Assembly (NCBI GenBank): GCA_033763895.1
Contig: JANRJQ010000007.1
Location: 186,001-250,000 of the forward strand
Reading direction: 5' to 3'
DNA: 64,000 nucleotides
From: Chloroherpetonaceae bacterium
GTDB lineage: Bacteria; Bacteroidota; Chlorobiia; Chlorobiales; Thermochlorobacteraceae
Shown here: one piece after another, positions 51,770 through 53,725 of the stretch
Numbering within the stretch: position 1 is the stretch's first letter
Layout of the letters: each line of letters starts with the position of its first letter
The notes under the pieces: model-generated
The model's input: only the letters and a program-made list of their open reading frames with translations
What the model was told of the DNA's origin: nothing
Database searches by the model: none
Program-made: the position numbers and the translations under genes

Positions 51770-52591
51770 TTAATTTTTTGAAATTAGAAAAATTGTTTTC
51801 AAGGAGATTAAAATATCTTTAAAGTATCTTAATTCAATCATATTCGGACCATCGCTCGGCGCAGCATCGGGATTATCATGCACTTCCATAAAGAGCGCAT
51901 CTGCACCTACAGCGAGCGCTGCTTTTGCTAAAAGCGGCGCATATTTTCGTTCCCCACCCGTACGTTCACCCAAACCGCCCGGCATTTGGACACTATGCGT
52001 GGCATCAAAGACAACCGGATAACCGAATTTTTGCATCTCCGGAATTGAACGAAAATCCACCACCAAGTTATTGTACCCAAAGCTGGTTCCGCGTTCTGTC
52101 AGTAAAATATTCTCATTTCCCGTCGATTCCAATTTTGTGACGATATTTTTCATATCCCACGGTGCAAGAAACTGCCCTTTTTTCACATTCACAACCTTTC
52201 CCGTTTTTCCTGCGGCAATGAGCAAATCTGTTTGCCGGCAAAGAAAAGCCGGAATTTGCAGGACATCCACGACTTCCGCCGCGGGCTCTGCTTGATAGGA
52301 TTCATGAATATCCGTGAGAACCGGAATATGAAATGTTTCCTTTACTTTGCGTAAAATCGCAAGACCTTCTTCCATTCCCCCGCCGCGAAATCCTTTGATC
52401 GAAGTCCGGTTTGCCTTATCGAAAGAAGATTTATAAATCAGTTGAACGCCCAAGGGTTTCGTAATCGCAAGCAGCGACTCCGCCATTTTCATTGCATGTT
52501 CTTCCGATTCAATCACGCACGGCCCGGCAATAATCACCAATGGCCCGCCGGTTTCGATAGCGCAATCGTTTGTGATTTGGATTTTTTTCAT
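51770..52591 (-). CDS. kdsA: 3-deoxy-8-phosphooctulonate (Kdo-8-P) synthase
   Basis: Condenses arabinose-5-phosphate with phosphoenolpyruvate to Kdo-8-P for LPS inner core. The 273-residue protein starts at the ATG reading [22 protein letters not shown] (23-29), [18 protein letters not shown] and [12 protein letters not shown] are the family motifs. The open frame continues 123 codons further upstream through the hairpin repeats, but that part is repeat translation and not KdsA. A start three codons earlier (MKP) is also possible. Its partner kdsD lies on the other side of the repeat array; kdsB and kdsC were not seen. Confidence 0.93.
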
Positions 52592-52613
52592 TGGTTTTAT
52601 TACATGTTTTATT

Positions 52614-52980
52614 GTCATTTCGAGCGCAGCGAGAAATCTCTGATTCTCTGCACACCGGAGATTTCTCACTCCGCTTCGCTCCGTTCGAAATGACTTCCTC
52701 TCTTTTGTTTTGTGCCTTTTATGTTCTGTCATTTCGAGCAAAGCGAGAAATCTCAGACCTACCGCACACCAGAGATTTCTCACTCCGCTTTGCTCCGTTC
52801 GAAATGACTTCCTCTCTTTTGTTTTGTGCCTTTTATGTTCTGTCATTTCGAGCAAAGCGAGAAATTTCAGACCTACCGCACACCAGAGATTTCTCACTTC
52901 GCTTCGCTCAGTTTGAAATGACTTCCTCTCTTTTGTTTTGTGCCTTTGTTGTTCTGTCATTTCGAGCGCATCGAGAACTT
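52614..52980. repeat. Hairpin repeat array, left block (units 1-3 plus half of unit 4)
   Basis: Three 81-bp units at 52614-52694, 52728-52808 and 52842-52922, plus the left arm of a fourth at 52956-52980. Starts are exactly 114 bases apart. Each unit begins GTCATTTCGA and ends TCGAAATGAC (unit 3 ends with TTGAAATGAC). The inner arms GAGAAATCTC and GAGATTTCTC are also complementary. The right arm is longer (37 against 27 bases), leaving small bulges, around a 17-base loop. A conserved 33-base linker (TTCCTCTCTTTTGTTTTGTG start) separates units. Because 114 is 38 codons, frames stay open across the block and create false ORFs. Confidence 0.93.
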
Positions 52981-53382
52981 ATATTCTTTCAACTTATTGA
53001 TATGCCAAAATCCCAATTGCTACTTAAATCCTTCCAAGTAGGATTAAAAGCCTTAATTAATTCCAGCTTCTTTTTTCTTGACCAACTTTTGATTTGTTTT
53101 TCACGTTTAATTGCTTCTATCGCATCACTATGCATTTCGTAGTAAACCAAATTCACAACATTGTATCGATACTTAAAGCCTTCATTTAACTTATTCTTAT
53201 GTTCGAACAATCTACGGTTTAAGTTGTTAGTCATTCCAACATAAAGAACCTTGGTTTTACTTGAGAGAATGTAAACAACGAAAGAATTCATATTCTATGT
53301 TCAATGAAAGGGGTTCATTTTACATTAGTTGCCTCATTAAAATCTGAGATTTCTCACTTCGCTTCGCTCCGTTCGAAATGAC
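52956..53382. mobile_element. Candidate GIY-YIG-bearing hairpin element (split repeat unit 4)
   Basis: The left arm of a hairpin unit (GTCATTTCGAGCGC... at 52956-52980) and the right arm (GAGATTTCTC...TCGAAATGAC, 53346-53382) flank one nuclease gene. The outer 10 bases are perfect inverted repeats and identical to those of the gene-less units. The gene's stop is only 8 bases inside the left arm. The 427-base structure therefore looks like a unit whose loop carries a gene. Mobility is inferred, not shown; no target-site duplication could be defined because the flanks are repeat linker. Confidence 0.5.
52989..53291 (-). CDS. Single-domain GIY-YIG nuclease
   Basis: A 100-residue protein made only of the GIY-YIG fold. 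VYIL (6-9) is the GIY-strand equivalent, LYVGMT (16-21) the YIG strand, NLNRRLFEHK contains the conserved arginine, and REKQIKSW holds E65 as the candidate metal-binding glutamate. This is the UPF0213/UvrC-N-like small group. Relatives include repair nucleases and homing endonucleases. It sits inside a hairpin repeat unit between kdsA and kdsD, an unusual position for a housekeeping gene. Upstream there is a small AATGAA/TTCATT inverted repeat (53303-53319) but no clear ribosome binding site. Confidence 0.9.
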   Translation of the reverse strand: MNSFVVYILSSKTKVLYVGMTNNLNRRLFEHKNKLNEGFKYRYNVVNLVYYEMHSDAIEAIKREKQIKSWSRKKKLELIKAFNPTWKDLSSNWDFGISIS

Positions 53383-53725
53383 GGCTTTTGTTTTGATTCT
53401 TAATACTTAACGCTTCGTCATTTCGAGCGCAGCGAGAAATCTCAGACCTACCGCACACCAGAGATTTCTCACTTCGCTTCGCTCTGTTCGAAATGACTTC
53501 CTCTCTTTTAGTTTGTGCCTTTTATGTTCTGTCATTTCGAGCGTAGCAAGAAATCTTTGACTCTCTGCACACCGGAGATTTCTCACTTCGCTTTGCTCCG
53601 TTCGTAATGACTTCCTCTCTTTTGTTTTGTGCCTTTTATGTTCTGTCATTTCGAGCAAAGCGAGAAATCTCAGACCTACCGCACACCAGAGATTTCTCAC
53701 TCCGCTTTGCTCCGTTCGAAATGAC
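53346..53725. repeat. Hairpin repeat array, right block (half of unit 4, units 5-7)
   Basis: The right arm of the split unit (53346-53382) is followed by three full 81-bp units at 53417-53497, 53531-53611 and 53645-53725, again 114 bases apart. Unit 7 is identical over all 81 bases to unit 2 on the other side of the nuclease gene. Unit 6 shares the alternative loop (CTCTGCACACCGG) with unit 1; the others have the CCTACCGCACACCAG loop. The linker before unit 5 differs from the rest. The last unit ends 19 bases before the kdsD stop. Confidence 0.93.

Follow-up and report, generated by a model that had tools for sequence, protein, structure and literature searches.

A 100-residue GIY-YIG nuclease gene of a Chloroherpetonaceae bacterium lies, with its reading frame intact, between the two arms of a GTCATTTCGA repeat unit, and the association of such genes with REPs is almost certainly real. 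Judged by tag and stem base, the repeats in the window (the whole 64,000-nucleotide stretch of DNA that was analysed) are members of the CGTC/TGTC-tagged REP superfamily. The data suggest that gene and repeats probably form a REPtron-like system, in which a GIY-YIG nuclease of COG2827/UPF0213-like type is the cognate enzyme of these REPs.

The GIY-YIG Unit and Its Repeat Array

Sequence, ORF list and pattern search agree on arms at 52956-52980 and 53346-53382 around the 100-aa GIY-YIG ORF, as in the original prediction; the six gene-less units that it placed around the GIY-YIG unit were all located, each 81 bp long, and the stop codon of the gene is seen in the sequence 8 bp inside the left arm. 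The claim that the outer 10-mers are perfect in these units is correct for four of the six, the other two having a right-arm mismatch, at 52913 and 53602. The features of the locus are:

52613-53725: tandem array with a period of 114 bp, seven units, one holding the GIY-YIG gene
52614-52694: gene-less REP dimer of 81 bp, folding into a single hairpin (z -5.7)
52728-52808: gene-less REP dimer, 81 bp
52842-52922: gene-less REP dimer, 81 bp, right tag with one mismatch
52956-52980, plus strand: left REP arm (GTCATTTCGAGCGCATCGAGAAC) of the unit with the GIY-YIG gene; its tag points outward and the inner GAAATC is decayed
52989-53291, minus strand: GIY-YIG nuclease gene, 100 aa (ORF list, PF01541 profile, conserved residues)
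53348-53382, minus strand: right REP arm, 5' of the gene, GTCATTTCGAACGGAGCGAAGCGAAGTGAGAAATC as read on the minus strand, tag outward
53417-53497: gene-less REP dimer, 81 bp
53531-53611: gene-less REP dimer, 81 bp, right tag with one mismatch
53645-53725: gene-less REP dimer, 81 bp

By window sequence and pattern search, the GIY-YIG-bearing unit measures 427 bp and takes one place in the 114-bp array; its left arm is without the inner GAAATC. Allowing at most one mismatch, GTCATTTCGA is found 22 times in the window, where 6.7 occurrences would be expected. The window units are tagged TGTC-AT and have a 5-bp stem with a CGA hinge and the tail CTC. The whole dimer folds strongly and the single arms, as ssDNA, weakly (z near 0), so the hinge class may need a dimer or a cruciform. 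To the left of the GIY-YIG unit the linker is the array's standard one of 33 bp; the linker to its right (53383-53416) is unlike it. The mechanical kdsA ORF (51770-52960) extends upstream across three REP units and so gains some 120 codons, and an automatic gene call at these positions could give KdsA REP-encoded residues.

The whole host genome (3.55 Mb) holds three GIY-YIG genes, the other two being long and UvrC-like with open frames of 599 and 711 aa. It contains 18 exact gene-less dimers, and a broader pattern finds 52 REPs (reversed-pattern control, 0). In G002, a genome of the same family with 241 REPs, a GIY-YIG gene also lies among REPs; this gene (L099) sits inside a long array that alternates TTCTGA and TTCCGA REPs, and its end is overlapped by the 3' REP. 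Two genomes of the family lack both REPs and a small GIY-YIG gene, and G006 and G004 have 106 and 35 REPs with no small GIY-YIG gene detected in either. The presence of REPs in relatives with no detectable gene suggests that REPs can outlive the gene, or that some assemblies miss it. Around the kdsD homologues of the family, gene order is not conserved; neither a clear tagged REP array in kdsA-kdsD synteny nor an empty site was identified there.

Small GIY-YIG Genes between Outward REPs in Many Phyla

Relatives were collected at 80 loci from many phyla (about 43-66% identity, tblastn-confirmed scan). The flanks of most form inverted repeats far above other positions in the same loci, and the arms vary by species within a common frame of [C/T]GTC, a stem opening AT and closing AT, and then C. 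An earlier detector with a 7-bp stem misses the hinge class; the 5-bp-stem version used here reads GTC-ATNNN, a loop of 3-40, the complement and C, and was applied on both sides, tag outward, within 150 bp. Such both-sided REPs flank 27 of 76 GIY-YIG genes; among control ORFs from these loci the figure is 3 of 278 (p=3e-17). The count was 7/24 for additional copies in these genomes (controls 1/40), 9/27 for Flavobacteriaceae (controls 0/36), and 41/123 for all sets pooled, against 4/359 matched control ORFs. Eight altered tags used as detector found none of the 76 GIY-YIG loci, reversed tag order was likewise negative, and no UvrC-type GIY-YIG gene out of 14 has both-sided REPs. Units with REPs on both sides are present in at least 13 named phyla.

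Taken by itself, the window was compatible with coincidence, i.e. a small gene that landed between two REPs of a kind common between genes. Against this stand the pooled counts for GIY-YIG genes and matched control ORFs, and chance placement, which we regard as scarcely credible, is refuted by the 27/76 versus 3/278 comparison. Across many phyla the arms flank related GIY-YIG genes and not control genes, and the pairing thereby passes the refuting test set with the original prediction.

Strict two-sided arms were not found in about two thirds of the GIY-YIG loci, so that many copies are decayed or not REP-bounded. Among more distant small GIY-YIG genes of the same genomes (set B), 1 of 17 has both-sided REPs. 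One locus (L279, G034:C1:379020-380314) carries four distant GIY-YIG-like copies in tandem at a period of about 370 bp, several with stops, and REPs were not detected with these weak copies.

Co-occurrence was scored in 199 genomes of Flavobacteriaceae alone, for one perfect-hairpin REP type. The gene family is present in 128 of the 199, and at least two perfect-hairpin REPs occur in 37 of these 128 genomes and in none of the 71 without it (p=1.4e-8, kinship ignored). The REPs might instead be moved by a Y1/HUH transposase (RAYT), with the GIY-YIG gene as a passenger, and the host genome does have a single Y1/IS200-type transposase gene (L282, G000:C4:784216). However, no GTCATTTCGA repeat lies within about 1.4 kb of L282, G002 has its REPs with no Y1 transposase gene, and in Flavobacteriaceae the Y1 transposase shows no association with REPs (p=0.13), 9 of the 18 genomes with five or more REPs being without it. 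In addition, a Y1 gene flanked by CGTC REPs was not found by Di Nocera et al. (PMC3733652). The Y1 transposase was rejected as REP driver on the first three of these observations, and the passenger reading is very improbable.

The Protein Motif Covaries with REP Shape

The window protein matches PF01541 (62.4 bits, E 5e-17), with UPF0213/COG2827 small GIY-YIG as its best profile matches; an NCBIfam search with the 100-aa protein gave no match. The catalytic Tyr/Tyr/Arg/Glu/Asn of PF01541 are all conserved (Y7, Y17, R27, E64 and N83), as is G19. The AF2 model (pLDDT 85.6) resembles UPF0213 proteins and the structure-selective Slx1 (Z about 7), and the I-TevI catalytic domain is similar at Z 5.6.

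The REPs take two shapes, one with a perfect stem of at least 7 bp and a short loop, the other with a stem of 5 bp and, after it, a [C/T]GA hinge. The protein carries the motif KxWxRx[W/K]K in its C-terminal half, after the catalytic Glu helix, and a single residue of this motif, Trp or Lys, switches with the shape of the REP. In the Trp class (WxRxWK), 33 of 36 genes have a perfect hairpin of at least 7 bp, the other three having a 5-6 bp hairpin and no hinge; in the Lys class (W/YxRxKK), all 47 of 47 have a hinge REP. The rule fits 80 of the 83 genes with both traits, with no clear contradiction. The window motif W70-S-R72-K-K74-K75 (KSWSRKKK) is of the Lys class and its GTCATTTCGA arms are of the hinge class. 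The pairing is also seen within single genomes, namely G016 (L150 versus L031/L032/L043) and G031 (L129 versus L056).

In a permutation test within phyla, none of 5000 permutations reached the observed agreement of motif and arm type. When the motif columns were left out, the best tree required 11 and 10 changes for the two traits separately and only 12 for the combined state; on the first tree, arm class against phylum gave change counts of 26 versus 25, not clearly better. Well-supported branches provide four independent Trp/Lys contrasts, in which REP shape follows in about 2.6 and never opposes; four such contrasts are too few for formal significance once phylogeny is strictly corrected for. 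Cognate recognition of the REPs by the GIY-YIG nuclease is highly likely.

Exact Unit Boundaries and Occupied and Empty Sites

In multi-copy genomes, DNA homology begins and ends exactly at the tags. Four paralogous units in Staskawiczbacteria are homologous exactly from TGTCATTGCGAG to CTCGCAATGACA, with unrelated DNA beyond. The number of GIY-YIG copies per genome ranges from 0 to 20, and some copies contain stops. At three loci of Peregrinibacteria (L055, L061 and L098), homology does not stop at the REPs but continues for about 100 bp, up to an outer inverted repeat, GGATCAAGCGGAAA, which gives the unit the look of being nested in a larger element or of having captured one.

Several gene junctions are occupied in some genomes and empty in others. 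In Flavobacteriaceae, several species have the unit at the trpB-trpA junction, which in other species is empty or holds REPs alone. Azospirillum lipoferum 4B carries the gene at the sufB-sufC junction, flanked by one REP dimer to the left and one to the right; in A. ramasamyi, A. oryzae and Azospirillum sp. B510 this junction, with matched flanks 95.6-96.7% identical, holds neither the gene nor REP dimers. The sufB-sufC junction of Shinella sp. PSBB067 carries a distinct REP-gene-REP unit; the Azospirillum (L235) and Shinella (L246) units differ in their REPs, which suggests that this junction is a recurrent insertion site. On Sphingobium plasmids, the fnrL-fixJ junction is occupied by REP-gene-REP in several strains. 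In TomTYG64 it contains one palindrome that joins the left arm's left half to the right arm's right half, in TomTYG74 a similar palindrome with mismatches, and in TomTYG72, TomTYG65 and S. herbicidovorans no palindrome. Sinorhizobium meliloti Ak57 and K101 give a similar presence/absence picture at gltA-lpxB.

Beside the intact gene of Ak57 (L234, upstream of 2989), a truncated second GIY-YIG copy, its C-terminal part, lies between REPs. On Planktothrix agardhii plasmid p1 (L238), the GIY-YIG gene and its REPs have an MmeI-type restriction enzyme on one side and DISARM drmA on the other. The PLSDB "plasmids" that are the records of L234, L236 and L239 are chromosome-sized (CP090106.1, 3.7 Mb; NZ_CP119140.1, 2.2 Mb; NZ_AP026896.1, 4.9 Mb) and are probably mislabelled chromosomes.

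The empty sites fit loss of the unit by collapse between its arms as well as gain. The original proposal of the 427-base unit as a MITE-like parent of the gene-less units therefore survives as one possible direction only, loss fitting equally; in addition, a search of 139 short and 75 long units for target-site duplications found none, 1-8 bp direct repeats being at shuffle level. The units lack the duplication that marks an IS or MITE with a DDE transposase.

GIY-YIG domains are found in homing nucleases, and some of these observations are also consistent with a homing-like parasite, i.e. the REPs spread otherwise, and a selfish GIY-YIG nuclease targets their palindromes and is copied into the cut REPs by repair. 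The several copies per genome together with pseudogenes would fit, as would trpB-trpA junctions with REP dimers and no gene, and the single palindrome of TomTYG64 and TomTYG74 where Sphingobium relatives have REP-gene-REP. We consider this unlikely, as in the Flavobacteriaceae genomes multiple REPs of the tested type were never found without the gene family, which is unexpected if REPs spread independently, and there is no intron, no intein and, unlike in I-TevI, no second DNA-binding domain. As regards the features of a homing element, the window locus is intergenic with no intron seen, and occupied and empty sites exist elsewhere.

The enzyme might alternatively serve host maintenance, trimming or resolving REP cruciforms in replication with no mobilisation, the gene having come to lie among REPs via autoregulation or relaxed selection. 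The nearest folds to the AF2 model, which include the structure-selective Slx1 and At-HIGLE, are in line with such a role, and Caulobacter has three COG2827 genes, one reported to be under LexA (PMC1839093). However, the patchy distribution of the family in Flavobacteriaceae, the up to 20 copies and the stops in some of them argue against it, and the exact unit boundaries with presence/absence in close relatives have the look of a mobile unit rather than of housekeeping. We regard a maintenance role as distinctly unlikely.

Discussion

The CGTC superfamily was described as REPs with a CGTC or TGTC tag and AT at the stem base, which are intergenic and mostly inverted dimers; it includes CGTC-1, which is dRS3 in Neisseria, and RPE-6 and RPE-4 in Rickettsia (PMC3733652). 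Di Nocera et al. in 2013 found these REPs unassociated with transposase genes and apparently without a dedicated transposase (PMC3733652). In our loci, 123 of the 139 short dimers have T or C at position -1, and inverted dimers predominate (the 18 exact dimers of the host genome and the 139 short dimers). A stem of 8-9 bp, a loop of 4-5 nt and a CCA tail are found in many Trp-class REPs; the window REPs have 5-bp stem/CGA/CTC. A small GIY-YIG gene adjoins such repeats in S. meliloti, A. lipoferum, Neisseria gonorrhoeae and Novosphingobium aromaticivorans; the arms of the Novosphingobium gene are of the GTCGCCCC type. The superfamily paper lists species in which we find the small gene beside the repeats, but it contains neither the hinge class nor a link to GIY-YIG nor the covariation of protein and REP (PMC3733652). 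In the open literature, a scope that leaves outside bioRxiv and most subscription papers, we found no work that pairs GIY-YIG with REPs and nothing on COG2827 or UPF0213 with repeats. The repeats of the locus are no isolated case: they are described CGTC/TGTC-tagged REPs (PMC3733652), a revision of the original reading.

The likeness to REP/RAYT systems, which the original prediction had raised, is partial. Common to both are one gene flanked by inverted REPs with dispersed REP dimers (PMC2817692, PMC8266576, PMC6006769), and REPs that are enzyme-type-specific and fall into bulged and perfect classes (PMC8266576, PMC6006769). The analogy is upheld by a pairing that recurs across phyla and in which repeat and enzyme covary; it breaks down at the enzyme, which is HUH/Y1 in REP/RAYT and GIY-YIG here, and at the tag, which is GTAG (GTAG/GTGG) there and [CT]GTC followed by AT here. 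Of the features that define a REPtron, a gene flanked by inverted REPs that are also dispersed as dimers is found, and neither HUH/Y1 as the flanked gene nor a GTAG/GTGG tag. According to published descriptions, REPtrons do not transpose as a unit, whereas here the gene is often multi-copy and moves as a unit.

Other GIY-YIG proteins have the fold in common with the window protein. The UPF0213/COG2827 structures 1zg2 and 1ywl in the PDB, both of unknown function, are of the same fold and size, but the subfamily described here has the WxRx[W/K]K motif and sits in REPs. Slx1-Slx4, whose substrates are branched DNA, has the same catalytic fold; the 100-aa protein differs in having no zinc finger and no Slx4 partner. 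With the homing endonuclease I-TevI it shares the catalytic domain, but here there is no intron and no long DNA-recognition arm.

In the REPtron-like system that we favour, the gene would travel inside a REP dimer as REP-gene-inverted REP, and the gene-less dimers would be its non-autonomous kin. The nuclease may recognise the folded REP, by tag and stem or by stem and hinge, when this is extruded as a single-strand hairpin or a cruciform, and would nick or cut the folded REP or REP dimer hydrolytically. Because GIY-YIG catalysis forms no covalent intermediate that could serve strand transfer, it would be host repair that then copies the REP-bounded segment to a new site or, alternatively, deletes it, leaving a collapsed palindrome as footprint. 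Nuclease-driven spread of REPs through repair is a tentative proposal, to which we give somewhat less than an even chance. The same caution applies to the wider idea of a pan-bacterial REP class in which the GIY-YIG nuclease might read shape by a Trp/Lys switch and cut the hairpin, repair copying both the dimers and the gene-bearing unit.

The CGTC REPs, dRS3 and the Rickettsia palindromic elements among them, have been held since 2013 to lack a dedicated enzyme, and the small GIY-YIG nuclease is a candidate for it; a single small protein and short oligonucleotides are enough to put the question to the test. The pairing of Trp with the perfect hairpin and of Lys with the hinge also makes a protein-DNA shape code available for study. 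If the proposal is true, it would assign a function to a family of genes that is very common and unannotated, reveal a second, non-homologous route to REP dissemination beside that of the RAYTs, and explain the origin and spread of the CGTC REPs, including dRS3, RPE-4/RPE-6 and others.
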